Source of the DNA: an uncultured Bacteroidales bacterium
GTDB taxonomy: Bacteria > Bacteroidota > Bacteroidia > Bacteroidales > FEN-979
Length of the DNA: 64,000 nt
Assembly: GCA_903837605.1 (NCBI GenBank)
Contig: CAILVF010000053.1
Coordinates: 1-64,000, forward strand
Reading direction: 5' to 3'
Shown piece after piece: positions 21,319 to 56,196 of the stretch (the stretch's first letter is position 1; each line of letters opens with the position of its first letter). Below the pieces are notes generated by a model. The model was not told where the DNA came from. It saw only the letters and a program-made list of their open reading frames with translations, and did not search any database. Position numbers and translations under genes: made by a program.

Positions 21319-21328
21319 TTTTGCACAG

Positions 21329-21359
21329 TTTGTTTTTTAATTTTTCAGTTGTAATTTAG
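21329..21359 (+). promoter_or_regulatory. Promoter (TTTG-N19-TAATTTAG) of the four-unit repeat protein
   Basis: TTTG at 21329-21332 is followed after 19 nt by TAATTTAG at 21352-21359, a near-perfect Bacteroidota promoter (one mismatch in the -7 element). The ATG lies 32 nt downstream. A second -7-like element, TAATTTTG, overlaps the stop codon of the preceding gene at 21316-21323. Confidence 0.55.
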
Positions 21360-21390
21360 CAGAAACAAGTCTGATAACAAACAAAGCATT

Positions 21391-39300: not shown

Positions 39301-39739
39301 CAAGAATACGCCTTTCAAGGTATTGGCTTACATACTGTTCGTTGATCAATCCGTCGGTTATTGGCTTTAAACCCACATCCTGTAAACAGATCAGGTCAAG
39401 TTCAACAGGGCTTCCAGAAGTGTTGGTAATATCAATGCCCCATTGCCAGCTGAGACTTTTATCTGAAAGCTGCAAAACACATGTATAATCAAGTCCGGCC
39501 CAATGCCCCCTGGCAATGAATGAACCTTCACTGATAAGAAAACGGCTGTTGCTTTCAGGACCCAGCAGAGCCTTGTATCCAATGGGTTTTGACCTCTTTC
39601 TCAGGTAAATGTTAGCCCCTGATTTTAAGAAAGCTGTTGCGGATTTCAGGCTTATCCTGACAGGATCAGCTTCAATACTCTTCAGGGAACCATTTTCCAG
39701 GAAATTAAAGGAAAGCCCGGTTTTATTTTTAATATTCAT
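36395..39739 (-). CDS. GH94 glycoside phosphorylase, probable 1,2-beta-oligoglucan phosphorylase
   Basis: 1114 residues from MNIKNKTG; an ATG six codons upstream is also possible. GH94 inverting phosphorylase: a beta-sandwich N-terminal half and an (alpha/alpha)6 barrel with GLEQFSGAAWGTRDIAQG, NPDGGWPQWWMFD and the general-acid Asp D758 in GGGDWND. No signal peptide, so cytosolic. Cellobiose and chitobiose phosphorylases are ~800 residues; this ~1110-residue length and the weak N-terminal part fit the 1,2-beta-oligoglucan phosphorylase branch. That branch converts beta-1,2-glucooligosaccharides and phosphate to alpha-glucose 1-phosphate. The GH144, GH3 and GH35 genes in the same locus support this. 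Another beta-glucan specificity cannot be excluded. Confidence 0.82.
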   Translation of the reverse strand: MNIKNKTGLSFNFLENGSLKSIEADPVRISLKSATAFLKSGANIYLRKRSKPIGYKALLGPESNSRFLISEGSFIARGHWAGLDYTCVLQLSDKSLSWQWGIDITNTSGSPVELDLICLQDVGLKPITDGLINEQYVSQYLERRILEDKNHGSVICCRQNMKETAGNPWLMMACKNTATSASVDGMQFYGKTYRETGIPEGLLADKLCGEYAGESSVLAIQETPFNLAAGDHHKSVFVASYLPDHPEATSDHDLNRLPGLIAEFGDEVSLYNPNEMLTSDKNVFNTSDFLPVDDLNGDDLNGFFGSERRQAEMENGRLLSFFSGQSNHVVLRSKELLADRPHAHIMQAMAGFIPDENIVSTTSFAGGVFNSHLTQGNTNFNILLSVCTTAFNLDTETGQRVFVEIGGLKYLLGLPSAFEIGLNHCRWIYKHGDHCFQVRSWTSKTAPQVNMDFKVLSGGEVDLLITHHFDHLNGWTVIPGKIIGEYVARPKLGSMITTKFPQAQFRMIVNSINSDYLACGDEALYSDNKSRGDNMFVVRVKATSDFCMSFIGEVNSTAKEVHIEDADEQCLADCQDAERVWQDLSLHLSIKGNQEDIAAIKEILPWFGMNALTHFLTPYGLEQFSGAAWGTRDIAQGPFDLLLCMEKYTEAKQVLKIIFSNQNPDGGWPQWWMFDSYSNIRADSSHGDVFYWCVIALSNYIKVTGDLGILGEILPYYNEHGDKNAEKTPLSEHIDRLIGMIVNSFLPGTALVPFGGGDWNDSLQPVSRELAGRMISSWTVEMNYQAFNQYRLVYELTGNTVKAKELKDICERIKTDFNRFLIRDGVVGGYGLLEEDGSMSLLLHPSDNKTNIQYSILPMDRGIISEIFTKEQARHHLDLIEQHLKGPDGARLMNRPIKYKGGIQTLFQRAESSTFFGREIGIMYVHEHIRYAEVQARAGRADAFVKALRQANPVAYRDIVPCGDIRQANCYYSSSDVTFRNRYEADERYDEIKTGKITLKGGWRVYSSGPGIYIALVVSRLLGLRVESGKIIIDPVIPLSMDGLCASMDIMGHAVTFRYVVKEGCFGPKTVSINDKPVRFSYEENKYRQGGAVIIASDFLEMLDEKENVVEVAL

Positions 39740-39781
39740 TGTTCTTTTTACCGGCATGTTGATAGTATTGAAACGGGAAAT

Positions 39782-42214
39782 TCAGCTTATGACTATGTTC
39801 AGGATCATCTCGGTCTTGTGCTTATGATTATATATGAACGCGATACGTTTCTCATCACGGACAACTTTGACAGTCTTACCGCGTAATGTTGCCGATATTA
39901 TTTTATTAACATTCTCCCCTTCAAAAACGATCTCCCCGGCCAGGTCACGATCGCCGTAAAGCATAATTTCAATCTGTCCAAAATTTTCTTCAATGCCGAG
40001 GATGTCGGAGGTGCAATGCAGGATCTTTAATCCCTCGGAAACTTCCAGGCATAGCGGGCTTAAAACGGAATACAGGGCCGGCCATGTGATCTCACCCCGG
40101 GAGTAGGGGATTGTAACAGCTTCACCATTTTGGGGATGAGTATAGGTAACTTTGCCTGTATATTCTTCATTGTAATAATTGCCTATGAAAAGAACCCCGG
40201 AGCCATTTACGGTAAATCTTTCTCTTACCGCGATATTATCGTTGCCTGTCCATGCCTGCCTGAGCTTTGCAGCTGATCTCCCGAGAATGGCTTCATAGAC
40301 GGGTTTCTGGCCTTCGGTGTCGAATCCAATCCAGGTTCCCAGATGGATCACAGATCCTCTGCCGAGAATTTTGATGAACCCGCAGGCGGAACCGGGGATG
40401 GTCCGGGCAATAATTTCGGCACCGGCAAGCGATTCTTCCGAGTAAATTATCTGCGGATTAGCGCACTTGATATCTTTATATTCAAAGACATCGATCAGCG
40501 GTGAGTCAATGGTTTCTTTACCGGAAGGGGATACCGAAAGTGCATCGCGAATGATGGTGCATGGTTCCTGTGTCATCTCACGATCGGGCAGGCAGGGGAA
40601 AATAACGGTGTTGCCGCCTGCTTTGGTATAATCAACAAGGGTCTGCTGGTCATCTGCATTCATTTCGTCGGTGCAGAAGGCCCAAACCTGTTTGTATTCA
40701 CCCAGTTCATCCGCAGAAGCCTTACAAAGATCAACCATGTTATAATCGATGTTAAGCACCTGCAATACTTTCAGCAATCCGTCGAAATATGCGGGTCTGC
40801 GGATGGCAGAAGGCGTAAACTGAAGCTCACATCCGCCTTCAAGCGGTCTTTCAAGCTCGGTAGCATAATACGGAGGATAAAAAAGGACACATACCCCGGC
40901 TTTACGTTTTGCATTAACGATAAGGCTTTCCGAGGTTTTAACCAGTTTATTCATCCGCCTGACGAGGGGGAACGCACTGCCGCGCTCACCTTCGGCATTG
41001 AGAGGGGTGAACCAGTAAAAAGTTTCCCCGGAATAACCTTTGCGGAACGGGTTGCGTCCCTGGGAGAACATGTAGTAATTCCATCCGGTGAGGCCGTTGG
41101 CAACGCTTGCTTTGTAGAAGAGCTCCATTTCACGCGGATTTGGCACCACGTGATACTCCCGCGAACCGCATTGGAATTCGGCGGCAAACAAAGGCTTGCT
41201 CCCCTGCATTGCAGCAGTGATATCATTTATGATACGGTCGTCATGCAAATTGCGGTATGACATGAATTCAGGAATATGATCCACCCCGAAAACAATCTCG
41301 CTTTTCTCTCTGAACAGATCTTCATACATTGTTATGTTGACGGGGAATTCATAACCGTTACCATAGATCCATCCGGGAAGATTGTGATACAGGGGGACTG
41401 TCACACCTCTTTCACGGGCCATGGCAGTCAGCATCCTGAGGTAGTCGCCATAATAAGTTCTCCAGAAACAATGCCATTCATAATCACGGCCGCGGTCACC
41501 CTTTGATGAATAGGGCAGTTTGCCGTCGGGGGGAAGCTCAACATCAGCGAAGTTCTTATATCCGGTCCCCCACAAATGGTTTATCTCTGCAATGCCGGTG
41601 AATTTCCGTGATAAATATGAAATGAAGCGTTCTTTCACTGCGTTTCCATAATCGGCCTGCTTTGCAAGCCATGAAAATACACCGATCTCATTACAGACCT
41701 GCATCATGATGATCGGACCGCCTGCCGAAAGTTCACGTTCAGCTATGAAGGGCATGATCTGGTCATACCAAAGGGCTATTTTTTCCAGGTATTTCTTATT
41801 AAACAGGCTTACTCCGTCGCTTGGGAAAATTTCGCCTTTGCTGTTGCGCATCTTGACTTCATCGCGATATTGCCCCAGGAACCAGTCGGGCAGCCCGGCT
41901 CCCCGGAATTCCGCAAGGATAAACGGTCCCGGTTTTACAATACAGTTCAAATTGTGAGCCTGGCATAGCTGAAGCCAGCCTTTGAGATCACGTTCGGGAC
42001 ATGTTGAGCCTTCAAAATCAAACACAGACTCTTCAGGTTCGTGCCAGGCCCATGGAACATAGGTGCTCACTGTTGTTAACCCGGCCTCTTTGGCTTCGTC
42101 GAGGTGCTTGTCCCATAAGTCACGTTTGATCCTGAAGTAATGTATCTCCCCCGAATTGAGAAATACCTTTTTGTTATCGAGATAAAAATTGTTTTCTTTA
42201 ATGCTGAAGTTCAT
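39782..42214 (-). CDS. GH35-family glycosidase/glycosyltransferase, cytosolic
   Basis: 810 residues. TIM-barrel start GEIHYFRIKRDLWDKHLDEA with GLTTVSTYVPWAWHEP; acid/base E176 in MQVCNEIG and nucleophile E346 in FAAEFQCG. C-terminal beta domains follow. No signal peptide, whereas GH35 beta-galactosidases of polysaccharide loci are often exported. A GH35 of Ignavibacterium is known (as I recall) to act on beta-1,2-glucosidic linkages as a glucosyltransferase; in this locus, next to a long GH94, the same role in the cytosol is likely. A beta-galactosidase remains the alternative. The GH94 gene starts 42 nt downstream, in the same operon. Confidence 0.78.
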   Translation of the reverse strand: MNFSIKENNFYLDNKKVFLNSGEIHYFRIKRDLWDKHLDEAKEAGLTTVSTYVPWAWHEPEESVFDFEGSTCPERDLKGWLQLCQAHNLNCIVKPGPFILAEFRGAGLPDWFLGQYRDEVKMRNSKGEIFPSDGVSLFNKKYLEKIALWYDQIMPFIAERELSAGGPIIMMQVCNEIGVFSWLAKQADYGNAVKERFISYLSRKFTGIAEINHLWGTGYKNFADVELPPDGKLPYSSKGDRGRDYEWHCFWRTYYGDYLRMLTAMARERGVTVPLYHNLPGWIYGNGYEFPVNITMYEDLFREKSEIVFGVDHIPEFMSYRNLHDDRIINDITAAMQGSKPLFAAEFQCGSREYHVVPNPREMELFYKASVANGLTGWNYYMFSQGRNPFRKGYSGETFYWFTPLNAEGERGSAFPLVRRMNKLVKTSESLIVNAKRKAGVCVLFYPPYYATELERPLEGGCELQFTPSAIRRPAYFDGLLKVLQVLNIDYNMVDLCKASADELGEYKQVWAFCTDEMNADDQQTLVDYTKAGGNTVIFPCLPDREMTQEPCTIIRDALSVSPSGKETIDSPLIDVFEYKDIKCANPQIIYSEESLAGAEIIARTIPGSACGFIKILGRGSVIHLGTWIGFDTEGQKPVYEAILGRSAAKLRQAWTGNDNIAVRERFTVNGSGVLFIGNYYNEEYTGKVTYTHPQNGEAVTIPYSRGEITWPALYSVLSPLCLEVSEGLKILHCTSDILGIEENFGQIEIMLYGDRDLAGEIVFEGENVNKIISATLRGKTVKVVRDEKRIAFIYNHKHKTEMILNIVIS

Positions 42215-42302
42215 TGGTCACTGGATAACTGGATGCAGGATATTGGTCACGATTTTCTTCACGATCATTAACGTTCACTGTTCACTATTCACTGTTCAGT
42301 GC
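42215..42302. repeat. Simple repeats (ACTGGAT units; TTCACTG/TTCACTAT units) between GH35 and MFS genes
   Basis: The gap holds CACTGGATAACTGGATGCAGG and, at 42271-42302, GTTCACTGTTCACTATTCAC-type units. The second run enters the 3' end of the MFS gene and supplies its last codons (LNSE and stop). Confidence 0.7.
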
Positions 42303-44342
42303 TCTTTTTTTAAGAAGGTCCTTAATTTCATGGCTTCGTTTTTCTGTGAGGGAGTAGCGAAGGACAAAGAAAATAGAAAAAATGCTTAATAGCAAAGGCA
42401 ACCCGATCTCAACAACCCTCATCATTAAAAGCGTATAAGGTGTTTGCTGGGTGAGTGGCATGATGCTGCTTTCGATTGAGCCGAGCTCTTTTTCCAGAGA
42501 ATCGGGTGATGATTTCGTGTTCAGGTTTAAAAGGCGGTTATTCACCCCTGTTACCTCCTCCATAAGCTTATTATAATGTGCTTTGCTGTTCTTTGTTCCC
42601 AGGGATTTATCTTCCAGCCGCGACATAAGCTCAAATGAGTTGATCCTTGCTTTTACGATCTTCGTCTGTAGTGTAAGCGGGATTGCTTCTTTGATGAGGC
42701 TGTCAAGCCTGGAGGATTGGGCGCCGGCCCCTGGTTTTTCAAAACTCAATTGCAGCTGTTCCAGCGAACCAATGGTTGCTTTTGTAGTGGAGATGGCGTT
42801 GAGCAATTCATTTTTCTTCTGGTTCGGATATTCATGCAGATTCACGTTCGTCTCATCCTGGTTTTTAAGTGATTCTTTTCCCAGGTAAGTGAGATATTCT
42901 TTTGACTCATTGAGAGCTTCAGAGTTCCGGGTTTTAGTGTTTTCAAGCCACTCCTGATTTGCGCTGGTTATTCCATGGTAGCCTTTCCAGAACTGAACGG
43001 TGCTGCGCATCTCACGTACACTTCCCTGTATTTTATCGACTTTCGTAACCTGGGTTTCGTCAAACATGGTAAATACGATCAACACACCAGTTACAAAGCT
43101 GGCCAGGGCGGATCCCATTTTGATGAACCACCAGAATACCGAGTAATAGCTTCCCTCTGAACGATACCCGGTCTTTAATTCATCTTCATCACAGATATCG
43201 CCCACCATGGAAGATCCAAGTGTGAAGAAAAACAGCATTCCTGCAGAAAGAAGAACCGTGGGGATGATGATCAGGTAGGGATGTGTTGGGTTATAGCATA
43301 TAATTTTAGATAGTTGTGCAAGGCACATGAGTAAAATAGCAATGGTCAGCGTATTTCTTTTACCCAGTTTCGGGCTGATCCAGTTGAGGGGAAATACTGC
43401 CAGCACCCCGGTGATAGCCCAGATCATCCCATTGATCGCGAGCAGGTAAGCTCCGGCAACCTTATCTCCCCCGAAAACATAAAAAATAGGGATATATGAC
43501 CCTATCAGCTGGACGAAATTAAAGCCCATAGCCAGCGTGAAGATCGTCAGCGTCAGCATGATAAAGTTCCTGTTGGTGGCTGTATGCTTCATGTCTTGCC
43601 AAAAGGGTGTTTTTTCATGCTTTGCAGCTTTTACAAATCCCGGTTCACGTAATTTGAAAAACCACCAGACTGAAAGCGGGATGAGGAAAGCAGCGATCAT
43701 CAGGGAAACATAACGCATGCCATCGGCTTCATTTCCTCCGGGACCTTTGAAAATTTCCATGCTGGCGAGGGCAAAAAGCCAGGGTGTGCCCATGGCAAAA
43801 AGATTGCCCACGAAACTCTTGGCGCTGAACAGCCGGGTACGTTCGTGGTAATCGGTGGTCATCTCCATGCCAAGGGCGCCGTGAGGGATCTCGAAAAGAT
43901 TAACGGCAGTAAAAAACAGGAGAAGGGAAAAAAGAATATAGCAGAGCTGAAACCACTGAAAACCCGTATCCGAAGGGAACCATGTTCGCACCATATCCCC
44001 TTTTGGGATCCACCAGATGACTACAAAAAAAACTGCAACCAGTATTCCGCCAATCAGCAAATAGGGTCGCCGGCGTCCCCAGCGGGTCCTGGTATTATCA
44101 GAAAGATGGCCAATAAAAGGATCAGATAGGGCATCCCATAAACGTGGAACAATGAGGATGGCTCCAAGCCAAAACGCACTCAGCCCAAGACTTATATTGC
44201 CCATCAGTCCCACGAGTATCCCCGCTATATTGAAGAGGGCGATGGGAATTATTCCCCCGGCGCCATAAGCGGCTAACTGAGAAAAGGGAATCTGATGTTC
44301 CGGCTTTGCTCCCTGGTCCTTTACTGTTTCCTGTTCCATCAT
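42285..44342 (-). CDS. MFS sugar transporter (GPH type) with a ~200-residue periplasmic insert
   Basis: 685 residues; family members are about 450-500. GPH/MFS_2 signatures: WDALSDPFIGHLSDNTRTRWGRRRPYLL near residue 60-85 and LFEIPHGALGMEMTTDYHERTRL near 165. About 11 membrane helices are followed by a hydrophilic, helical, coiled-coil-like region at roughly 425-630, then a last helix (LPLLLSIFSIFFVLRYSL) and a basic cytosolic tail. By MFS topology the insert lies in the periplasm. The expected job is to carry oligosaccharides released in the periplasm into the cytosol, where GH35 and GH94 act. The last four residues come from a simple repeat. Confidence 0.87.
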   Translation of the reverse strand: MMEQETVKDQGAKPEHQIPFSQLAAYGAGGIIPIALFNIAGILVGLMGNISLGLSAFWLGAILIVPRLWDALSDPFIGHLSDNTRTRWGRRRPYLLIGGILVAVFFVVIWWIPKGDMVRTWFPSDTGFQWFQLCYILFSLLLFFTAVNLFEIPHGALGMEMTTDYHERTRLFSAKSFVGNLFAMGTPWLFALASMEIFKGPGGNEADGMRYVSLMIAAFLIPLSVWWFFKLREPGFVKAAKHEKTPFWQDMKHTATNRNFIMLTLTIFTLAMGFNFVQLIGSYIPIFYVFGGDKVAGAYLLAINGMIWAITGVLAVFPLNWISPKLGKRNTLTIAILLMCLAQLSKIICYNPTHPYLIIIPTVLLSAGMLFFFTLGSSMVGDICDEDELKTGYRSEGSYYSVFWWFIKMGSALASFVTGVLIVFTMFDETQVTKVDKIQGSVREMRSTVQFWKGYHGITSANQEWLENTKTRNSEALNESKEYLTYLGKESLKNQDETNVNLHEYPNQKKNELLNAISTTKATIGSLEQLQLSFEKPGAGAQSSRLDSLIKEAIPLTLQTKIVKARINSFELMSRLEDKSLGTKNSKAHYNKLMEEVTGVNNRLLNLNTKSSPDSLEKELGSIESSIMPLTQQTPYTLLMMRVVEIGLPLLLSIFSIFFVLRYSLTEKRSHEIKDLLKKRALNSE

Positions 44343-44386: not shown

Positions 44387-47300
44387 TTAATAATAAATCA
44401 CCACCTCTGCCGGACAGGTTTTTACTGAAATCTCCTTCCCGGTAAAACCGGTTTGCCCTTTACCGTTCACTGTCACTCTGAGAGGCAGTTTCGAAGAGTT
44501 AAAGTTTTTGATCCTGATTCCGTTGGGAGGAAGTTTCAGGTCACCTGAAATTGAAAAGATGTATTTGTCTTTGTCTTTTTTAATTGAATAGGAAATTTCC
44601 CCGTAATAAGTCGGGAGATGTTCTACCGACATTCCCGCCGGCGAATCGATCCAATCCTGGTAAAGGGCAGAGGCTAAAACAAGAGATTGGTCATACTCGT
44701 TCTCATAAACAAACATAGCCCTTATTGCGTTAATAAAATCGCTGCCGACCCATGTATGGGGCATGTCGCCGATATACTTTGGAGCGCGGTAGTCTTTCCA
44801 AACGACTTCCGCCCAGTCATGCCATCCCTGAGGGCGCTGGTCATGCAGGAAAAATGATATTAACTCATGGGCTCTTTCAGGTTGATCCAGGAGTATAAAT
44901 GAACCGATCAAACGGTTTTCATAAGGAGTGTAATTAATCCAGTCAGTCTTTCCGTCCCAGCGGTTTTTAAAGAATTCAAAATACTTATCAAACGTGTTAT
45001 AAACCTGGGGCTTTGGTAAGTTTATCAATTCATTGCATGGTGTTAAGGCAATCGTGGTTGAAGTGGCATCAAAATCACCGAGCTCGGCACAACCTGGGAT
45101 ATAATTTATTTTCTTTGATTTCATTGCAAGCTGCAAGGAGTTGTAAAGGTTCTCCTTAAATGAATCACGCACTTTTGAAATTCTTTCATAGGATTCCTTC
45201 TCGCCAAGGATCTTCTGGATCTCGGCAGCATCCTTCAATCCTTTCATGGTAAAGAAATCATCCCAATAAGAGTGCATCGGTTTTGCCGAATAACCTTCGT
45301 GGCTGATCGATTCGGTTACTAGTCCGTAGCAGGCCCGCACACTGTCGCTGCCGTTTTTAAAGTGGTCAGTTGATTGTTCCGCGATCAGGGATTCGATATA
45401 CTCTACAGCCTTAAGTACATTTTTATTCTTTGACCTGAGAAAAACCGTATCCTTTGTAAAGTTGAAATATTCGCGGATCAGGTAGATCATTTCCCCGTGG
45501 CTGTCGTTTTCGGGAACCGGATCGGGTCCCCTGAAATCAACAACGCAGGGGACTTTCCCGTTCCCGAACTGGTGTGATGTGAACCATTCAATAAAATCTC
45601 TGACTTCAGTTACGATACCTGACTTCAGAAGTGCTGATGAGGTCAGGGCTCCGTCGCGAATCCAGCTCCGTTCGTAGGAACGAGAACCGGGCTGAATACC
45701 TGCTTTGTCCCTGTTGACCAGGATGTATGCGAGATTTGACCTGTATGTGTTTATTATCCCGCTTGCCGACTCAGGCAGGGTAAACTTTATATGCCCCGTT
45801 TTCGTTTTCCAGAATTCAGTGGCTTTATCAGATTCCTTTGCGATATAATCATTGTTAAGTCCCTGGTCACCGGTTTTTCTGCCATAAAACGGAACAACCA
45901 AAAAGAAACGGATATGTTCACCGGGATTTAAGTGCAATGTATATTTCAGTACGCCGCTGGCCAGCCTGTTCTGATCTGCAGCAGATTTATACCCGGGGAA
46001 CTTACCTTTATGTAAAAGATCGACGATATTCCCATTGTCAAAGCTGAACGCACCAAAAGAATTATACTTTTTCTGAGGCAGTATAACTTTATCATCAACA
46101 GCTATCACTCCGCTGCCTTCTTCCTTGATGGAATGTATTTTCCCCGACCCTCCGGTAAGATTCAGAAACTGGTAATAAGGATTGACCTGGTATGGGCGGA
46201 TCAGCAGATAAAATTCAAAATCTTTTGGCCGGGCCGACAGGTTTGTAAAGGAATAGCTGATATCAAGCCTCGAATCCTTGTTTGCCTCCCCGCTTGCCGT
46301 TACACCGGTTACGAATTGAAGATCGGGAAGCTGCCAGCTCACAGATGGCACAAAATTAAAGTCACCCTTATCCCCGGGAGTCCCCATTGACTGAGATGAT
46401 TTAACGTTGCTCCAGTTATAAAGAGAATCCCCTGATTTTATCATCGGCTCAATCGAAAACAGTGCTTTATCAACTTCAACCATTCCATCTTCATTGATCA
46501 GCGCTTCCTTCACATCATTGTTAACGCCGGTAATTGTCCAGTAAGAAGCCTGTTCTGAGAAGTACCTCGGATAATTTCCCGGCGGGGAATTTTTAGCGGC
46601 ATAAATTAAAAAATCATTCGGGCTCATGGAGTTTTTAATGTCCAGAAATTTCACTTCATTGATACCGAAGCCTTTTTCGGAATTACTTGTTAAAAGATTT
46701 AGTTTAAGAAATTTTGCTTCTGCTTCGGGCAGCCTTATAAAACTAACATCACCCTGATTTGATTTAACAGAATAGACTTTTTCCCATTTTTGGCCGTCAT
46801 CCGATAAAAAAACATCAAAATCCTTGGCGTATTTATTTTTCAGCCAATTGATTTGTAAACCCCCGAATTCCCTGCGTGTTTTAAAGTCAAAACCAACAAC
46901 CTGGTCTTTTATGCCTGTGCTTTCCCAGCGGGTCTCATTTGAACGATCGGCAATATGCTCTGGCGTATGGTCAGCTAAAGATGAGGACGCTGTAATTACA
47001 GGCAAGGGGTAGGATTGAGTTTCGGGCGGAAGAGGCTCAAACTTCAGATCATCAATCCAGATTGTGCCTTTGCCGCCAACAAAAGATGAAATAGTAAATT
47101 CAATCCTGTCAATCCGTTTTAAATTCTGGTCCGAAGCCGGTCCCCAGGCAAAACGGATATGTCTTTTTTTTATCCTTACCTTTTTCCATTCTTTTGAAAA
47201 ATCATAATTGTGGTTGTTAACCCACCAAACATTATTACCCGTACTGTCAATAAATTTTATCTCAAAATTATTGGCAGGGGATTCGGCTTTATAATAAAAG

Positions 47301-47572
47301 GTAAATTCATAGTTGTCGGGCAGATCTATGGGGAACAATTTTTGTATTCCACCGTATCCGGTTCCATTGGTGAATTCATAATCAAAACGGATTGCGGTGC
47401 CTGTCAATCCTTTTTCATTGGATAATTTAAGATTCACCCCGTCGGATCTGATGAAAGTCCAGCCGTTCTTATTTTCAAATGCGTCAAGTGTTGATATCTG
47501 GGCGGAAGTGATGAAAGTTGCAAAAACCGAGAGGAATAGCAAAAATAACCTCTTCCGGATATGATTTTTCAT
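44387..47572 (-). CDS. Exported multidomain protein with an unassigned (alpha/alpha)6-type catalytic-like domain
   Basis: 1061 residues. Signal peptide 1-24 (FATFITSAQ). Residues ~30-180 resemble a CBM11/complex-I-intermediate type jelly roll (GTIWIDDLKF), ~190-320 an F5/8-type C (discoidin) carbohydrate-binding domain (FDVFLSDDGQKWEKVY), ~330-600 a further beta-rich region, and ~600-970 a helical barrel with SRSYERSWIRDGALTSSALL, YLIREYFNF, SYWDDFFTMKG, TPYENRLIGSF and GWHDWAEVVWKDY. The barrel part recalls GH15/GH63/GH37-like inverting enzymes but I cannot place it in a family. D in WIRDGA and E in WAEVVW are candidate acids. Located in a beta-1,2-glucan-like locus, probably periplasmic. 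It starts 13 nt after the GH144-type gene. Confidence 0.75.
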   Translation of the reverse strand: MKNHIRKRLFLLFLSVFATFITSAQISTLDAFENKNGWTFIRSDGVNLKLSNEKGLTGTAIRFDYEFTNGTGYGGIQKLFPIDLPDNYEFTFYYKAESPANNFEIKFIDSTGNNVWWVNNHNYDFSKEWKKVRIKKRHIRFAWGPASDQNLKRIDRIEFTISSFVGGKGTIWIDDLKFEPLPPETQSYPLPVITASSSLADHTPEHIADRSNETRWESTGIKDQVVGFDFKTRREFGGLQINWLKNKYAKDFDVFLSDDGQKWEKVYSVKSNQGDVSFIRLPEAEAKFLKLNLLTSNSEKGFGINEVKFLDIKNSMSPNDFLIYAAKNSPPGNYPRYFSEQASYWTITGVNNDVKEALINEDGMVEVDKALFSIEPMIKSGDSLYNWSNVKSSQSMGTPGDKGDFNFVPSVSWQLPDLQFVTGVTASGEANKDSRLDISYSFTNLSARPKDFEFYLLIRPYQVNPYYQFLNLTGGSGKIHSIKEEGSGVIAVDDKVILPQKKYNSFGAFSFDNGNIVDLLHKGKFPGYKSAADQNRLASGVLKYTLHLNPGEHIRFFLVVPFYGRKTGDQGLNNDYIAKESDKATEFWKTKTGHIKFTLPESASGIINTYRSNLAYILVNRDKAGIQPGSRSYERSWIRDGALTSSALLKSGIVTEVRDFIEWFTSHQFGNGKVPCVVDFRGPDPVPENDSHGEMIYLIREYFNFTKDTVFLRSKNKNVLKAVEYIESLIAEQSTDHFKNGSDSVRACYGLVTESISHEGYSAKPMHSYWDDFFTMKGLKDAAEIQKILGEKESYERISKVRDSFKENLYNSLQLAMKSKKINYIPGCAELGDFDATSTTIALTPCNELINLPKPQVYNTFDKYFEFFKNRWDGKTDWINYTPYENRLIGSFILLDQPERAHELISFFLHDQRPQGWHDWAEVVWKDYRAPKYIGDMPHTWVGSDFINAIRAMFVYENEYDQSLVLASALYQDWIDSPAGMSVEHLPTYYGEISYSIKKDKDKYIFSISGDLKLPPNGIRIKNFNSSKLPLRVTVNGKGQTGFTGKEISVKTCPAEVVIYY

Positions 47573-47585
47573 AACAGGGTAAATT

Positions 47586-48971
47586 TTATTTCAAATATTC
47601 AAAGCCAAGTTTGTTCAAGCCTTTTTGGATAATAGTATCCTTCATCACATTATTCCATACCAGGCCCGTTCTGAAGTTTTCTATCATGATAAGCATCGGG
47701 CCTTCATCTATCCCCAGAAAATCATCGTCTACCCATTTTGCAGTCGGGTTGAATGCATCATAATAACCGTATTTCCCCCATAATTCAGCGCCATACTTTT
47801 TATTCATGGATTTAATGGCAGGGAACACTATTTCAGGAGCAAAAGGCAATGATGAAAGGGAAGCGTAGGGGGCTATGGTTCCATCGTCAAAATAATTATA
47901 CCCCGGCCCGCTGGTTCCCCTTCCTGCATAACCCAGGAATTTTTTATCACCAAAATTGTATTTGTCGGGAGGGCCGTCACTTGCAGTAACTCCCCAGCAA
48001 AGCGAATCATAACCAATCCATCCTTTCGGGTTTTCAGTTGCATACTTTCGCTGAACATAGGTTGCACGGCGGGAGTTTTCGAAATAATCGATTCCTTTTT
48101 CCTTCATGTACTTATCAACCAAACCACGGCAATCTATAAATGCCTGTGAAAACTGGTGGCCGAACAAGGGAGGAAAAGCAACATGCGATAATCCTTTATA
48201 TGGAGTGTACCACTTATAGGTTTTCAACCAGGAAGCATAGCATTGTTCTGCATTGTTCATACCGCTGCCTGCTGCCAGAATATACAGGAACAGGGCCTCA
48301 TTATAACCGCTCCAGCCAAAATCCTCCAAACCTTTTTCGGGGGTCCAGGCCATGGAAATAGCAGAAGCATATTGACTTGAAGCGGGCAATACCATAAAAT
48401 TCCAGTCAATCCTGTGAAGTAAAATTGCTGAGATAGAGCGGATCTGTTTTTCAATATCATTATCCTTGTTATAATAGTTCCTGGCAAAGATGATACCCAT
48501 CATCAGCAGGCCTGTATCTACTGAAGAAAGTTCACAATTCCATTTACGTGTTCCGGTATCCATTGTGAGAAAATGATAATAGAATCCTTTATACCCGGTC
48601 ACATTTGAACCGGTACTTTGAACGGAATTTAAAAAGAACTTAAGAATTTTCAGCGTAATCTCAGCCGCTTGTCCGCGACTGATCCAGTTCCTTTCGGCAC
48701 CAATTGCAAAAGAGGGAATCCCAAACCCGGTTGCTGCTATACTACAGGGGGAAGTGCTGGTAGTGCGGTCCTTGACAATTCCTTTCTCGGGATGGTATTC
48801 ATGTAAAAAAAAGAGAAAAGTTTTGTGCTGTATGGAGTCGAGCATTTTCTCGTCGCCGGCTGTCGTCGGAAACTTAACTTTCCCATGAGATGTGAAAACG
48901 GTATTCTGAGCCTGTGCGGCAACCAGTGTCAGTGTAAAAAATAAAAACACTAGAGAGTTTCTGATCTTCAT
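47586..48971 (-). CDS. GH144-type (glucoamylase-like PF10091) enzyme, periplasmic
   Basis: 461 residues from MKIRNSLVFLFF. This start is chosen over an ATG 34 codons upstream because a signal peptide follows it (ending near AQAQN) and AAGGAAC precedes it. (alpha/alpha)6 barrel with the conserved runs ATGFGIPSFAIGAERNWISR, GWSGYNEALFLYILAAGS, GYDSLCWGVTASDGP, PYASLSSLPFAPEIVFPA and IDEGPMLIMIENFRTGLVW. The family includes endo-beta-1,2-glucanases and a sophorose-releasing exo-enzyme. No lipobox, so soluble in the periplasm. A second copy with Ig domains and a lipid anchor lies 2.4 kb upstream in the operon. Confidence 0.82.
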   Translation of the reverse strand: MKIRNSLVFLFFTLTLVAAQAQNTVFTSHGKVKFPTTAGDEKMLDSIQHKTFLFFLHEYHPEKGIVKDRTTSTSPCSIAATGFGIPSFAIGAERNWISRGQAAEITLKILKFFLNSVQSTGSNVTGYKGFYYHFLTMDTGTRKWNCELSSVDTGLLMMGIIFARNYYNKDNDIEKQIRSISAILLHRIDWNFMVLPASSQYASAISMAWTPEKGLEDFGWSGYNEALFLYILAAGSGMNNAEQCYASWLKTYKWYTPYKGLSHVAFPPLFGHQFSQAFIDCRGLVDKYMKEKGIDYFENSRRATYVQRKYATENPKGWIGYDSLCWGVTASDGPPDKYNFGDKKFLGYAGRGTSGPGYNYFDDGTIAPYASLSSLPFAPEIVFPAIKSMNKKYGAELWGKYGYYDAFNPTAKWVDDDFLGIDEGPMLIMIENFRTGLVWNNVMKDTIIQKGLNKLGFEYLK

Positions 48972-49099
48972 ATGGTTCCTTATTTTAATGTTTACCTGAG
49001 TTTCAATAATTTTGTCTGCACAGCGGCAGGGAATCTGCTGAAACATTATTCCTCTAGCAGCGAAGGCCTTCAACGAACAGATTCAGAGGAGGTCGTCTC

Positions 49100-51343
49100 T
49101 CAGAGTTTAAATGAGGCAGAAATAACGTCTGCAGAACTCCCTCCAATAAATGCATTGAATTCACCGGGTTCCCAGTATTTCATGAGGTCGGGATGATAGA
49201 ATGAAAGATCTTCCCGGCTGATGGTGAACGAAACATTCACAGATTCCCCTTTTTTGATCATTAGCTTCTTAAAACCTTTAAGTTCTTTGAGAGGTCTTGT
49301 AATACTGCCGACTTTGTCCTGGATGTACAGTTGAACAATTTCTTCACCGTCGCGTCCACCTGAGTTAGTGACCTTTGCCGAAATTGTAATACTGTTGCCT
49401 TTAACACCTGCCTGGATGCCTGAGTATGTGAATTTTGTATAACTCAGGCCAAATCCGAAGGGATAAAGAGGCGTATTGGGGCAATCGAGGTACCTGGAAA
49501 CATATTTTTCATCGGGGCGGTCGGGACTGTAAGGCCTTCCGGTATTTTTCACATTGTAATAAACCGGGATCTGGCCGGTATTCCTTGGAAAGCTCATGGT
49601 GATCTTTCCTGAGGGATTCACATCGCCTGAAATTACATCGGTAATCCCGTTCCCCGCCTGTGTCCCTCCGAACCAGGTTTCAAGGATAGCCGGTGCGATC
49701 CGGTTCAGCCTGCTGATTGCCAGGGGACGGCCATTGAAAAGCACTACCGCTGTTGGTTTACCTGCTTTTATGACTGCTTCTGCAAGGGTGTATTGCATGC
49801 CCGGAAGGTCGATATTCGTGCGGGAAGCTGCCTCACCGCTCATCTCGCCGCTTTCACCCAGTGCAAGGATCACGAAATCTGCTTCCCTGGCTGCCTTTAC
49901 TGCAGCATCAATGCCGCTGACTGAGCTGTCGTTCAGGTTGCAGCCTTTCTCAAAAATAATCCTCGTTTGTTTGCCATACCTGTTCCTGAACCCTTCGAGC
50001 AGGCTCACTGCCTGCTCCCATTTCCCCGCTGAATACCAGTTACCCAGCATATCTTTCCTGGAATCTGCAAGGGGGCCTATCACGGCAATGCTTTTTACAC
50101 CAGGGGATACAGGGAGTGTGCTGTTGCTATTTTTAAGAAGGACGCAACTTTCGGCTACCAGCTTCCTTGCGAAGTCCTGGCTTGCCTTAGTCATGATCTC
50201 GGTTTGTTCGCGTTGTTTATTGCAAAAACGATAAGGGTCGATAAATAAGCCAAGCCGGACCTTTGCAGTCAGAATACGGCGAACAGCTTCGTCAATGGAT
50301 GCTTGTGTTACCTTGTTTTCTTTCAGCAGTTCTTCAAGGTGATTCAGGTAAGCGCTTCCCTGCATATCCATATCAACACCGGCATTCAATGCTAGACCGG
50401 CAGCAGCTTTCACATCGGCAGCCACGCCGTGGGCAACCATTTCATTTATCGAGGTCCAGTCGGTGACCACAAACCCCCTGAAACCCCACTCTTTTCTAAG
50501 AAGGTCGGTAAGCAGCCAGTGATTGGCTGTTGAAGGTACTCCGTTGATCTCATTGAAAGAGGTCATTACAGAAGCTACACCTGCATCCACAGCGGCTTTA
50601 TAGGGAGGAAGGTAGTTTTCATAAAGGGAGACAGGTGAGATGTCGACCACGTTATAATCGCGGCCTGCGGTAGCTGCACCATAGGCTGCAAAATGTTTTA
50701 CACAAGCCAGAATATGCTTCCCATCCTTATAATTCTCACCCTGAAGACCCCTTACACTGGCTTTGGCTATAAGGCATCCAAGCCATGTATCTTCTCCTGC
50801 TCCTTCAGCAACCCTTCCCCAGCGCGGATCGCGTGCAATATCCACCATAGGGGCATAGGTCCAGTTGATCCCTTCGGCCGAGGCTTCCATGGCGGCAATC
50901 TGCTGGGCATTTTCTATAGCGGCAAGATCCCAGCTCGCAGCCTGGCCGAGAGGGATTGGGAAAATGGTGCGATGACCGTGGATTACATCATTACCGAATA
51001 ACAGGGGTATCCCGAGACGAGACCCGTTTACAGCAAGTTTCTGAAGCTCCCTCACTTTATCCACAGTGTAAAAGTTGAGGACCGCACCGGCTTTTCCGGT
51101 TTTAATCAGTTGTTCATAATCGGCATTCATAGCAGGACCGGTTGAGTTCCAGGCCGATGCCAACAGAGTCAGTTGTCCGATCTTTTCATCAAGGGTCATC
51201 CTTGAGATTAATGTCTCAACCATGATGCTATCTGCCGGAGAAAGTCTTATATCATTAGGCTCCTGGGCAATTGCAACCTGGATCAGCAGGTTAAGGATGA
51301 ATATATGAAGGCAGGATTTCAGAAATCCGGGATGAAAATGCAT
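49100..51343 (-). CDS. GH3 beta-glucosidase
   Basis: 747 residues. Signal peptide 1-26 (LIQVAIAQE). BglX-like layout: TIM barrel with RMTLDEKIGQL, FGNDVIHGHRT, DPRWGRVAEGAGEDTWL and KHFAAYGA; nucleophile D295 in FVVTDWTS; alpha/beta sandwich with NSNSTLPVSPGVKSIAVIGP and GESGEMSGEAASRTNIDLPG; C-terminal Fn3-like domain. It removes glucose from beta-glucosides in the periplasm. A Bacteroides GH3 of a related locus prefers sophorose-type beta-1,2-glucooligosaccharides, which fits here. Located between the two GH144-type genes, same operon. Confidence 0.93.
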   Translation of the reverse strand: MHFHPGFLKSCLHIFILNLLIQVAIAQEPNDIRLSPADSIMVETLISRMTLDEKIGQLTLLASAWNSTGPAMNADYEQLIKTGKAGAVLNFYTVDKVRELQKLAVNGSRLGIPLLFGNDVIHGHRTIFPIPLGQAASWDLAAIENAQQIAAMEASAEGINWTYAPMVDIARDPRWGRVAEGAGEDTWLGCLIAKASVRGLQGENYKDGKHILACVKHFAAYGAATAGRDYNVVDISPVSLYENYLPPYKAAVDAGVASVMTSFNEINGVPSTANHWLLTDLLRKEWGFRGFVVTDWTSINEMVAHGVAADVKAAAGLALNAGVDMDMQGSAYLNHLEELLKENKVTQASIDEAVRRILTAKVRLGLFIDPYRFCNKQREQTEIMTKASQDFARKLVAESCVLLKNSNSTLPVSPGVKSIAVIGPLADSRKDMLGNWYSAGKWEQAVSLLEGFRNRYGKQTRIIFEKGCNLNDSSVSGIDAAVKAAREADFVILALGESGEMSGEAASRTNIDLPGMQYTLAEAVIKAGKPTAVVLFNGRPLAISRLNRIAPAILETWFGGTQAGNGITDVISGDVNPSGKITMSFPRNTGQIPVYYNVKNTGRPYSPDRPDEKYVSRYLDCPNTPLYPFGFGLSYTKFTYSGIQAGVKGNSITISAKVTNSGGRDGEEIVQLYIQDKVGSITRPLKELKGFKKLMIKKGESVNVSFTISREDLSFYHPDLMKYWEPGEFNAFIGGSSADVISASFKL

Positions 51344-51376: not shown

Positions 51377-53359
51377 TTAATATGTAAAACCAAGTTTTGT
51401 CAGTGATGCCTTTACTTCAGGGCTGCTCATACACAGGTTCCAGGGTAGCTGGGAGCGGTAATTCTCTATCATACAAATGATGGGCCCTTCGTCGATAGCA
51501 AGATATGAATCGGCCCACCAGCCTGTCGTTATATCAAAAGCATCGTAAAATCCATAGGTTCCCCATAATCTGTCACCAAGGATATAATAAAAATGCCTGA
51601 TAGCGTTCATTGACTGGACCGGTGTATAGGGCAGGGCCGAAACAGCCGCAGTTGGGGTTATGACTCCCAGGTCATTGGTTGGCGATTGGGCATTGTATCC
51701 CCATGGATTGTCACTGGCCGTAAGTCCCCAGCAATGGGAGCTGTACCCAAGAAAATGCTGAGGGTTGGCAACACAATATGAGTAATTGATCATCGACTGG
51801 TTCACATTCTGTATGCGGTAGCTGGCGTATTCATCGTTTAGATTCCGAGGGTCAATCCCAAGAAAAGAATAATGTGTGAAGAACAATGGGCCGCCGTAAT
51901 CTTCACCCAGCGGGAGGATATAACCGTAAAAACTGTTCCCGTTTTTTATTGTGCCGTTCTGAGCATAGCCCTGTTGATAAACTGCAGCACTCACAGGATG
52001 TGTTGGTGAAGCTCCGGCCATGATATAGGTGACAAGGGTCTCATTATACCCCCTTATCTGCATGTTCATAGCCCAGCCGTAATCAGGAGACCAGTGCCAG
52101 TAAAGCACATTCTGTCCCCTGGTATACCAGTCGTATTCCACTCCGTTAACCAGGGTGGTGATCCGGTTGATAAGCGATTTCTCACTAACATTTGTAGAAT
52201 CAAGATACTGGCGCATGGTATACAAACCTTCCGCCATATAAGAAGTCTCAACAAGATCCCCTCCGTCGTCCTGTTCAGTAAACGGTACAACTTTCCCGGT
52301 ACTGCCATTAAGCCAGTGAGGCCATGCGCCGTGGAAGCGGTCGCAGGTTTCGAGGAAGGTCAGGATCTTGGCCAGGCGGGCAAGCCCCTGGTCCCTGGTA
52401 ATGAAATTCCTGTGCATCCCAACTACCAGGGCTATGATACCGAACCCGGAACCGCCTGTGGTAACTATATCTCCCGAAGTATTCCTTTCCCTTGCCATGC
52501 CACAGGAAGGATGCGCAAAATCATAAAAATACCTGAAGGTTTGCTGCTGTACCAGGGTTAACAGATCTTCATCAGGGATTATTGGAAATTTAGGGGTTGA
52601 ATCAAGCCTGGTGTAAAAAGAGTTTGAAAAGCCGTCAAATATAAATCCACTCTTTGACTTCAGGTTTGATGAAATTGCGAATGCATATCTTTTGATGTCG
52701 GTAAGCTTACTGCCGTTTGAAATGGTGAGGCTTTTGCGGTCGCTTGAAAGGTTAAATCCCAGAGGAAGGCCTCCTGAAAGATAAAATTCCGATTTGTAAT
52801 TTGATGAATCAAGGGCCTCTGAAAACCGGACCTGGATATTAACCGTGTTAAAGTCAATATTGTATGGAACAGCCGGACCCATGAAATTAATCCCGTTCAG
52901 GCTGATTGATTCAAGTCTCATTTTACCGTTGACGGTCGTAAAACTGTAGCTCACCCCGGGAAATGTCTCAGCCTGCGCTCCTTTAATTCCGGAACTAAGT
53001 TGCAGGGTATATTGGTTTGCATGTTCCAGCGGAACTTTAGGCAATAGCCTGACGGAAGTGAAATTATTCGAAAAAGTGATGTTGCAGGCAACCAGCGACT
53101 GGTCGCTTTTCTTCAGGCTGACGCCGGTCCTTACAGTGCCGGTGTCAATCATCTCATTAAAAGAGATAATGACAGCACTGTCAACAGGGAGACCTGTATT
53201 CGGAGTATCAACACTCAGGTAAACTTGGCCGATTCTTGTATAAGCAAGATGTAACGCCCCGGGAGTTAATACATCTGAAGATTTTTTACAGGAATCGAGT
53301 GTTAAAATAAACGTTAACAGGCATAAAACTACAAACCATTGTGATTTCATCAGCGGCAT
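51377..53359 (-). CDS. GH144-type lipoprotein with two Ig-like domains
   Basis: 660 residues from MPLMKSQW; ATGs at 53392 and 53350 are alternatives. Lipobox with C24 in LTLDSCKKSS, so probably on the cell surface. Residues ~35-140 and ~145-250 are Big_5/SbsA-like Ig domains (PVDSAVIISFNEMIDTG, and FNTVNIQVRFSEALDS). Residues ~265-655 form a GH144-type barrel: GSGFGIIALVVGMHRNFITR, GYNETLVTYIMAGAS, HCWGLTASDNPWGYN, PTAAVSALPYTPVQSM and IDEGPIICMIENYRSQLPW. Likely the surface endo-beta-1,2-glucanase that makes oligosaccharides for SusCD import. It follows the LamG lipoprotein gene after a hairpin. Confidence 0.84.
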   Translation of the reverse strand: MPLMKSQWFVVLCLLTFILTLDSCKKSSDVLTPGALHLAYTRIGQVYLSVDTPNTGLPVDSAVIISFNEMIDTGTVRTGVSLKKSDQSLVACNITFSNNFTSVRLLPKVPLEHANQYTLQLSSGIKGAQAETFPGVSYSFTTVNGKMRLESISLNGINFMGPAVPYNIDFNTVNIQVRFSEALDSSNYKSEFYLSGGLPLGFNLSSDRKSLTISNGSKLTDIKRYAFAISSNLKSKSGFIFDGFSNSFYTRLDSTPKFPIIPDEDLLTLVQQQTFRYFYDFAHPSCGMARERNTSGDIVTTGGSGFGIIALVVGMHRNFITRDQGLARLAKILTFLETCDRFHGAWPHWLNGSTGKVVPFTEQDDGGDLVETSYMAEGLYTMRQYLDSTNVSEKSLINRITTLVNGVEYDWYTRGQNVLYWHWSPDYGWAMNMQIRGYNETLVTYIMAGASPTHPVSAAVYQQGYAQNGTIKNGNSFYGYILPLGEDYGGPLFFTHYSFLGIDPRNLNDEYASYRIQNVNQSMINYSYCVANPQHFLGYSSHCWGLTASDNPWGYNAQSPTNDLGVITPTAAVSALPYTPVQSMNAIRHFYYILGDRLWGTYGFYDAFDITTGWWADSYLAIDEGPIICMIENYRSQLPWNLCMSSPEVKASLTKLGFTY

Positions 53360-53369
53360 TTTAAGAAAA

Positions 53370-53403
53370 CAGAGAGGGTTAAGGAAAACCATAACCCTCT
53401 CTG
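53370..53403 (-). terminator. Intra-operon hairpin terminator/attenuator
   Basis: A perfect 12-bp inverted repeat (CAGAGAGGGTTA/TAACCCTCTCTG) with a 10-nt loop, followed on the minus strand by TTTTCTTAA. It lies between the LamG lipoprotein and the surface GH144 gene. It may reduce read-through from the susCD part into the enzyme part. Confidence 0.6.
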
Positions 53404-56191: not shown

Positions 56192-56196
56192 AATCT

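Follow-up and report, generated by a model that had tools for sequence, protein, structure and literature searches.

A GH15-like protein in a β-1,2-glucan utilisation locus of an uncultured Bacteroidales bacterium and its possible role in removing α-1,6-linked glucose

The window, a 64,000-nucleotide stretch of DNA from an uncultured Bacteroidales bacterium, encodes a GH15-like protein on the minus strand, together with the following neighbors.

36395..39757, minus strand: GH94 of the 1,2-β-oligoglucan phosphorylase (SOGP) type (SOGP Pfam domains; LpSOGP 5h3z, E 3.4e-170)
39782..42214, minus strand: GH35 of the β-1,2-glucosyltransferase type (IaSGT 7vkw, E 1.7e-150)
42285..44342, minus strand: GPH-type MFS sugar symporter (PF13347, 1.6e-66)
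44387..47572, minus strand: GH15-like protein, whole gene (open reading frame with ATG start, stop codon included; 1061 residues)
47586..49073, minus strand: GH144 (PF10091, 2.6e-72; XCC2207 8xul, E 4.4e-108)
49100..51343, minus strand: GH3 β-glucosidase (PF00933/PF01915; NF011678 BglX above cut-off)
51377..53392, minus strand: second GH144, with Big_5 domains (PF10091, 2.8e-67)
53423..54658, minus strand: Laminin_G_3/Big_5 protein (Pfam; lipobox by eye)
54698..59253, minus strand: SusD-like (54698-56191) and SusC-like (56197-59253) pair (Pfam)

GH144, SOGP-type GH94 and an importer occur together here, and these sequence matches identify the locus as one for β-1,2-glucan utilisation. The first-pass annotation had placed the gene in such a setting, which the IaSGT-type GH35 also supports. 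No signal peptide was recognized by eye in the GH94. The Laminin_G_3/Big_5 protein is a probable surface glycan-binding lipoprotein.

The GH15-like protein itself is divided as follows.

47501..47572, minus strand: probable signal peptide, residues ~1-24 (sequence judged by eye; helix 2-23 in the model)
47033..47500, minus strand: CBM11-like jelly roll, residues ~25-180 (profile match to 1v0a)
46625..47008, minus strand: F5/8 type C (discoidin, CBM32-like) domain, residues ~189-316 (PF00754; CBM32 chains in the PDB)
45854..46552, minus strand: β-supersandwich, residues ~341-573 (models and fold comparison)
44693..45784, minus strand: (α/α)6 barrel, residues ~597-960 (models; GH15 profile comparison)
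44390..44650, minus strand: C-terminal β domain, residues ~975-1061 (DSSP of models)

The protein is probably exported, the signal peptide being judged by eye. With a 17-member family profile, residues 26-178 match the CBM11 of endoglucanase H (1v0a) with an E value of 1.3e-5, and the Pfam scan places PF00754 at residues 193-303 (E 4e-14). The AlphaFold2 model has a mean pLDDT of 88.5 over the full length and 90.4 for residues 318-1061, and its predicted barrel contains 12 main helices between residues ~601 and 954. The earlier description of a 1061-residue protein with a jelly roll, a discoidin domain and a helical barrel is thus upheld by the open reading frame, the 1v0a profile, PF00754 and the AlphaFold2 model; the β-supersandwich and the C-terminal β domain are additional to it. 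A C-terminal β domain is not known as a feature of GH15 enzymes, and it was counted against a GH15-type reading.

The barrel had at first been considered unassignable to a glycoside hydrolase family. This stands in so far as the barrel lacks any Pfam or NCBIfam match above the model's cut-off, but by profile comparison (hhalign, single comparisons) the barrel is nearest to GH15 among the eight GH families compared. The alignment with GH15 spans most of the barrel, covering 285 columns (residues 632-954) with a score of 87.5 and a Prob of 97.0, which is no proof of membership in GH15 because GH133, GH63 and GH37 reach 96-99 against each other. The Prob values for the other families are 94.2 (GH133), 84.6 (GH63), 81.6 (GH94), 16.8 (GH65), 11.5 (GH37), 0.9 (GH78) and 0.2 (GH144), and the remaining controls stay at or below 6.2 (7.9 with a longer catalytic profile). 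With GH15 as the query against the other families tested, the best value is 85.1 (GH133), below that between the barrel and GH15. The alignments of GH133 and GH63 end short of the general base region, and that of GH94 stops short of the region of Glu922. The profiles contained 10 rows for GH15, 7 for GH133, 12 for GH63 (one a 195-residue fragment), 14 for GH37, 16 for GH65, 9 for GH78 and 16-17 for each locus family. The rows were picked among the better matches, the longest open frame at each locus being assumed to be the matched frame, and the E values are those of single comparisons, not of a database search.

Family models give a different order in the relatives. The GH15-like protein has no match at E ≤1 to PF00723 (GH15; cut-off 22 bits), PF17389 (GH78; cut-off 24.5 bits), or PF17167 and PF06165 (GH94). 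Among 17 relatives examined with HMMER, PF17389 matches 12 (best 2.4e-7, with one, L014, above the cut-off), GDE_C matches 8 (best 2.6e-4) and PF00723 matches 7 weakly (best 7.7e-4), while PF17167 and PF06165 are absent from the relatives' families listed (25 of 27). The commoner and stronger matches to PF17389 were counted against a GH15-type reading. Against solved structures, the full-length sequence matched in the F5/8 type C region only, and the catalytic part gave no sequence match at E values up to 10. Profile searches of solved structures found weak matches to GH15 (5z3e, E 1.7), and in a second search 9ju0 (E 0.22) and 5z3e (E 0.27) were outranked by a rhamnosidase (0.042) and C-type lectins (0.043 and 0.081). 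Kinship with GH37, considered for the YWDxxF motif, was rejected, as the match is local (14 to 21 residues) and was judged to be chance or convergence.

With the full-length model, dextran dextrinase (GH15) is ranked first by both Foldseek and VIA, and the enzyme of Gluconobacter oxydans can be superimposed with a Z score of 28.4 (3.8 Å, 554 residues). The sandwich and barrel overlay with glucoamylase (Z 25.6, 3.8 Å) and glucodextranase (Z 25.2, 3.7 Å) over 547 residues each, and GH94 1,2-β-oligoglucan phosphorylase has a Z score of 24.6 over 573 residues. With the catalytic part alone, a fucosidase, GH65, GH78, GH95 and one GH94 entry outrank dextran dextrinase, and GH94 is first in Foldseek. 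Fold ranking was set aside as a means of assigning the family, and comparison of the predicted model does not pick among GH15, GH65, GH78, GH94 and GH95. The close folds include a GH65 α-1,2-glucosidase and PGGHG with kojibiose. No trehalase or endo-β-1,2-glucanase appears in the titles of the 50 fold matches listed.

The alignment with GH15 defines a candidate active site in the barrel.

45653..45679, minus strand: SYERSWIRD, residues 632-640, aligned with GH15; proposed subsite −1 motif (Y633, W637, R639, D640)
45290..45307, minus strand: ISHEGY, residues 756-761; E759 aligned with the GH15 acid, proposed general acid
45251..45274, minus strand: HSYWDDFF, residues 767-774; D771 invariant
44798..44815, minus strand: WAEVVW, residues 920-925; E922 aligned with the GH15 base, proposed general base
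44726..44773, minus strand: IGDMPHTWVGSDFINA, residues 934-949, aligned with the GH15 block LGNFPQAFSHIGYINA (hhalign)

Tyr633, Trp637, Arg639, Asp640, Glu759 and Glu922 are each invariant in 100 of 100 rows, as is Asp771, a proposed alternative catalytic or sugar-binding residue. The rows are the GH15-like protein and 99 relatives (L002 and the six weak relatives L023-L028 were left out); the relatives are not all independent because at least two are apparent duplicates, L092/L005 and L094/L006 looking like the same contigs from their equal lengths. The subsite −1 motif of GH15 consists of Tyr, Trp and Arg-Asp (PMC12446779), corresponding to the SYERSWIRD segment in the first inter-helix loop of the predicted barrel. 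Glu759 lies between helices 5 and 6, where the pLDDT is below 50 (residues 759-763), a point counted against the GH15-type reading, and Glu922 lies between helices 11 and 12. In the AlphaFold2 model the six proposed residues occupy the loops that follow helices 1, 5 and 11, those named for the GH15 dextran dextrinase (PMC12446779). The catalytic roles are predicted from the hhalign alignment of the GH15 acid and base with Glu759 and Glu922.

The motifs WIRDGA (637-642), SYWDDFF (768-774) and WAEVVW (920-925) singled out in the first-pass annotation are all present. Its suggestion of the Glu in WAEVVW as a catalytic residue agrees with the alignment of Glu922 with the GH15 base. The Asp in WIRDGA is a different matter, as Asp640 corresponds to the sugar-binding Asp of GH15 subsite −1, and Glu759 is proposed as the acid instead. 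The residue before Glu759 is His758 in 100 of 100 rows. Of the 10 GH15 rows, 8 have Trp at this place, where it is usual though no strict mark of the family (L129 and L132 lack the acid pattern searched for, and none of the four patterns is present in L132). The His suggests a different +1 site and was counted against a GH15-type reading.

Relatives of the protein are encoded in at least 566 of the 593 matched stretches listed in the genome-contig scan, so the protein is no chance reading frame. Among 395 genomes, GH144 is found in 20 of the 20 that have a strong homologue versus 112 of the 375 others (Fisher p 1e-10). GH144 is located within 700 nt upstream of the homologue in 66 of the 71 loci with room for it, and 12 of 12 further loci contain GH144. 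GH3 is present in 21 of 80 loci, which are biased to close relatives because they are the best 80 of at least 566, and GH2 or GH1 lies beside the homologue in the five distant loci scanned. The β-acting partners vary (GH3, GH35, GH2, GH1) and the GH15-like protein is constant, in loci chosen for holding a homologue. A strong homologue is absent from 112 of the 132 genomes with GH144, so linear β-1,2-glucan probably does not need the GH15-like protein.

GH15 enzymes hydrolyze α-glucosides, as a rule with inversion. Xanthomonas, Ralstonia and Cereibacter make β-1,2-glucans cyclized by an α-1,6 link, the α linkage that a review names for these glucans (PMC11842490). The α-1,6-cyclized glucan of the phototroph Cereibacter sphaeroides has a DP of 18 (PMC11842490). 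An exo β-glucosidase failed to hydrolyze the α-1,6-cyclized product of Xanthomonas (PMC11228985), and section 9 of the review has no α-acting enzyme among the degrading enzymes (PMC11842490). In the open-licence literature, the titles and abstract openings of the matches listed mention neither a GH15 enzyme linked to β-1,2-glucan nor a hydrolase for the α-1,6 link of these glucans.

We tentatively propose that the GH15-like protein is a probably exported, exo-acting α-glucosidase of the GH15 type. Tyr633, Trp637, Arg639 and Asp640 would hold a glucose at subsite −1, Glu759 would act as the general acid, and Glu922 would be the general base that acts on water, giving inversion. The GH144 enzymes would cut the α-1,6-cyclized β-1,2-glucans, which are periplasmic glucans of some Proteobacteria, and exo-acting β-enzymes would then shorten the fragments from their non-reducing ends as far as the single α-1,6-linked glucose, where they would stop. 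Removal of this glucose by the GH15-like protein would allow β-trimming to resume. The analysis shows the type of locus, the conserved association with GH144, the profile nearest to GH15 and the invariance of the residues; from these we infer the α specificity, the 1,6 linkage, inversion, the natural substrate, the location and the order of the steps. The protein probably represents the first member of a new family related to GH15; that such a family is dedicated to the α-1,6 link of these cyclized glucans is a possibility, and a doubtful one.

The first-pass annotation had expected a step beyond the known enzymes, such as opening of cyclic glucans or removal of substituents such as phosphoglycerol. 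A step beyond the β-acting enzymes is likely. Ring opening is unlikely, as the active site of dextran dextrinase, a solved structure of the GH15 type, is pocket-shaped (PMC12446779) and an endo cut in a ring would not be expected of such a site if the resemblance holds. Nothing found points to removal of phosphoglycerol or another substituent, with no esterase or phosphodiesterase domain among the Pfam and NCBIfam matches and a GH15-like barrel, and this suggestion was rejected. Removal of a terminal α-linked glucose would fit better than either. If the proposal is true, it would fill a gap in the known breakdown of one class of the periplasmic glucans that bacteria make. This conserved, unassigned enzyme tied to GH144 would be a concrete candidate for removing the α-1,6 link. 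It could also found a new CAZy family and serve as a genomic marker that separates users of α-linked β-1,2-glucans from users of linear or all-β glucans.

The linkage could differ from that proposed, the protein being a GH15-type α-glucosidase for other α-linked glucose (for example α-1,2, α-1,3 or α-1,4 caps) on β-1,2-glucans or related glycosides. This is somewhat unlikely, but it is consistent with the GH15-nearest profile, and the α-1,2-glucosidase and PGGHG/kojibiose structures among the close folds, as well as the altered +1 site suggested by His758, argue for it. The α-1,4-specific glucoamylases have one Trp in common in the helix 3-4 loop, where none of the 100 rows has a Trp. Instead, Trp878 is found in the helix 9-10 loop (99 of 100 rows) and Trp925 in the helix 11-12 loop (94 of 100 rows), which, judging from residue numbers, are the loops where the Trp residues of α-1,6-specific enzymes lie. 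These residues fit the α-1,6 pattern weakly, and α-1,6 is the α linkage named in the review (PMC11842490).

It is unlikely that the protein acts on β linkages in spite of its GH15-like sequence, as an exo-β-1,2-glucanase, sophorohydrolase or side-chain β-1,6-glucosidase. The Arg639-Asp640 pair is also present in the β-acting GH94 (Arg630 and Asp631 in LpSOGP) and therefore does not fix the anomer. The first rank of GH94 in Foldseek for the catalytic part, its Prob of 81.6 and the β-acting families of the neighboring enzymes are in keeping with such an activity. However, the loci already hold β-glucosidase families (GH3 in 21 of the best 80 of at least 566 loci, and GH2 or GH1 in the five distant ones scanned), most GH144 genomes lack a strong homologue, and Glu922 is aligned with the GH15 base.

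Retention and inversion in GH15 are not separable by sequence (PMC12446779), and a retaining transglucosylase that moves α-glucose, as does dextran dextrinase, would account for the leading rank of that enzyme with the full-length model and for an N-terminal CBM-like domain, which it likewise has (PMC12446779). It is nonetheless very unlikely here. The retaining cluster of GH15 is marked by two dyads, Gly-Glu and Phe-Tyr; all 100 rows have Ala921-Glu922 in place of the first, and the second was not found in the GH15-like protein's helix 9-10 loop. That the barrel is degenerate and the protein a non-catalytic carbohydrate binder or sensor, as the two binding-type domains might suggest, is highly improbable given that the residues proposed for catalysis and sugar binding do not vary among the 100 rows.

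The proposed α-glucosidase resembles the GH15 enzymes (bacterial glucoamylase, glucodextranase and the isomaltose glucohydrolase KfIG) in its barrel profile, its subsite −1 motif and the aligned acid and base. It differs from them in the His before the acid, in its C-terminal β, CBM11-like and F5/8 type C domains, and in its tie to GH144 loci. With dextran dextrinase, a retaining GH15 enzyme, it has the SYE...W.RD motif in common; the Ala-Glu in place of the Gly-Glu dyad, the other N-terminal domains and the 14% identity in the aligned part set the two apart. GH133 (amylo-α-1,6-glucosidase) and GH63 are the second and third nearest profiles to the barrel. The arrangement of supersandwich, barrel and C-terminal domain is also that of the GH94 1,2-β-oligoglucan phosphorylase, itself a neighbor in the locus, but the profile score of GH94 is lower. 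GH144 of clan GH-S is the genomic partner and likewise has an (α/α)6 barrel (PMC12102758), but it shows no profile relationship to that of the GH15-like protein.

The 1061-residue protein has a multidomain organization, as defined from Pfam, a 17-member family profile and two AlphaFold2 models (mean pLDDT 88.5 and 90.4):

44387-47572, minus strand: open reading frame of 1061 residues
residues 26-178: match to the CBM11 of endoglucanase H (17-member family profile, 1.3e-5)
residues 193-303: F5/8 type C domain (Pfam, E 4e-14)
residues about 341-573: beta-supersandwich (models)
residues about 601-954: (alpha/alpha)6 barrel with 12 main helices (models)
residues about 975-1061: C-terminal beta domain (models)

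This layout bears out the first-pass annotation, which had described a reading frame of this length with a jelly roll, a discoidin domain and a barrel. The barrel has no Pfam match at E up to 1. Only two NCBIfam models match the protein, both far below cut-off, an oligosaccharide amylase (TIGR01577; 1.8e-5, 23.5 bits against a cut-off of 820.7) and an archaeal trehalase. We take both models to be GH15-type.

The barrel was compared by hhalign with (alpha/alpha)6 family profiles, built from genomes of the same phylum, and with profiles of the locus families. GH15 is the nearest family (97.0, score 87.5, 285 columns, residues 632-954), followed by GH133 (94.2), GH63 (84.6) and GH94 (81.6). The values are low for GH65 (16.8), GH37 (11.5) and GH78 (0.9), and for the controls GPH (6.2), GH3 (0.4), GH144, GH35 and SusC-like (0.2 each) and SusD-like (0.1). 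With a longer catalytic profile GH15 is again at the top (96.5), and no control exceeds GH35 (7.9). Among the four families scoring above 80, GH15 alone aligns over the whole span that begins at the SYERSWIRD motif, takes in the acid and base loops and ends at IGDMPHTWVGSDFINA. With GH15 as the query, no other family compared exceeds 85.1; GH133, GH63 and GH37 score 96 to 99.7 against one another. The HMMER results count against the GH15 placement, as GH78 matches in 17 relatives (12/17, best 2.4e-7) are more common than those to GH133 (8/17, best 2.6e-4) or GH15 (7/17, best 7.7e-4), and one relative, L014, is above the GH78 model cut-off.

Six weaker relatives from the scan of 395 genomes (L023-L028; 22-28% identity, 758-849 residues) possibly form a second uncharacterised GH15-like group. 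W.RD is present in all five that were aligned, and the [YF]WD and PEA motifs in four; a Pfam scan of five gave a single match above cut-off, GDE_C in L025. Elsewhere in the genome, three consecutive barrel genes (G000:C19:17493-24774) are hit by GH63-type models, and one of the three by models of GDE_C and GH78 as well.

For the full model, dextran dextrinase is the top match by Foldseek (4.5e-17) and by VIA (Z 28.4, 3.8 Å, 554 residues), followed in VIA by isomaltose glucohydrolase (Z 27.0, 3.2 Å, 315 residues) and MmpH (Z 26.9, 3.7 Å, 318 residues). Next, at Z 26 to 26.5 and tied within 1, come entries of rhamnosidases, GH116 and GH65. For the catalytic part alone, fucosidase 8zbv (Z 26.4), PGGHG, rhamnosidases, one GH95 and one GH65 entry lead, with dextran dextrinase at Z 21.9 (3.8 Å, 557 residues); GH94 is the top Foldseek match. 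The modelled fold is common to many families and does not settle the choice between them.

The gene lies on the same strand as those for GH94, GH35, a GPH symporter, two GH144 enzymes (the second with Big_5 domains), GH3, a laminin-G protein and a SusD/SusC pair (Pfam for the second GH144, GH3, the laminin-G protein and the SusD/SusC pair), and this set identifies a beta-1,2-glucan utilisation locus. The closest solved relatives are 1,2-beta-oligoglucan phosphorylase for GH94 (3.4e-170), the Ignavibacterium beta-1,2-glucosyltransferase for GH35 (1.7e-150) and XCC2207 for the first GH144 (4.4e-108). The symporter is as follows:

42285-44342, minus strand: GPH symporter (Pfam)

By eye, it has a soluble stretch of ~200 residues (about 434-635) ahead of the last hydrophobic segment, outside its Pfam domain. 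A 952-residue protein with a Y_Y_Y domain (59546-62404) adjoins the SusC-like gene and is likely a regulator of the locus. Two very large proteins are encoded at 16225-25584, one with Fib_succ_major and Fn3-type matches and the other with a dockerin match.

Of the 395 genomes searched in the phylum, 22 carry a homologue at E 1e-10; the match is strong in 20, at E 1e-160 or below, and weak in the other two, G051 and G243. GH144 (E 1e-20) is present in all 20 genomes with a strong homologue, compared to 112 of the 375 others (Fisher p 1e-10, kinship ignored). Among the best 80 of at least 566 relatives, 75 loci have a GH144 match, and in the other five the gene starts within 830 bases of one end of the locus. 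Of the 71 loci with enough flank for a test, 66 have a same-strand GH144 no more than 700 nt upstream, and GH144 is also present in 12/12 further loci fetched. In the same 80 loci, whose flanks are often short, GH35 is found in 62, the GPH symporter in 60, SOGP-type GH94 in 48 and GH3 in 21. Ten proteins scanned from distant loci include four GH2, one GH1 and two GH94, and the partner enzymes thus differ between loci. The GH2 enzymes, within distant beta-1,2-glucan loci (L109, L114, L117, L120), are candidate beta-1,2-glucan-associated enzymes. A strong homologue is absent from 112 of the 132 genomes with GH144, and the protein is therefore probably not required for every beta-1,2-glucan.

The alpha-1,6-cyclised product of Xanthomonas resisted hydrolysis by an exo beta-glucosidase, and a figure legend names added treatment with the GH144 enzyme CpSGL (PMC11228985). 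Such glucans are also found in Ralstonia and Cereibacter, and section 9 of a review has no alpha-acting enzyme among the degrading ones (PMC11842490). By word search, the main text on the Ignavibacterium cluster does not mention GH15, discoidin or alpha-glucosidase (PMC8861115). We infer that trimming by beta-enzymes would arrive at the alpha-1,6-linked glucose, where an exo alpha-glucosidase would be required. The interpretation in the first-pass annotation holds in part: the additional step that it suggested, beyond the known beta-enzymes, is likely, and the barrel, which it left unassigned, is nearest to GH15 by profile. Removal of alpha-linked glucose by a GH15-related enzyme is the best-supported candidate role.

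The predicted active site was compared with those of GH15 enzymes. In PMC12446779, the subsite -1 and catalytic Glu residues are Y535, W540, R542, D543, E671 and E858 for dextran dextrinase, those of isomaltose glucohydrolase (KfIG) are likewise described, and a Trp in the helix 3-4 loop is common to alpha-1,4-specific glucoamylases. That Trp is missing in all 100 aligned sequences (the protein and 99 relatives). W878 (99/100) and W925 (94/100) are in the helix 9-10 and 11-12 loops, which may be the site of Trp in alpha-1,6-specific enzymes, a suggestive placement from residue numbers rather than superposition. By alignment, the counterparts of the six dextran dextrinase residues are Y633, W637, R639, D640, E759 and E922, invariant in 100/100, as are H758, D771, E885 and others. 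Because of this invariance, D771 may be an alternative catalytic residue. The acid loop is modelled poorly (pLDDT <50 in both models). In the AlphaFold2 model the six counterparts sit in loops after helices 1, 5 and 11, and the active-site residues of dextran dextrinase are in the corresponding loops.
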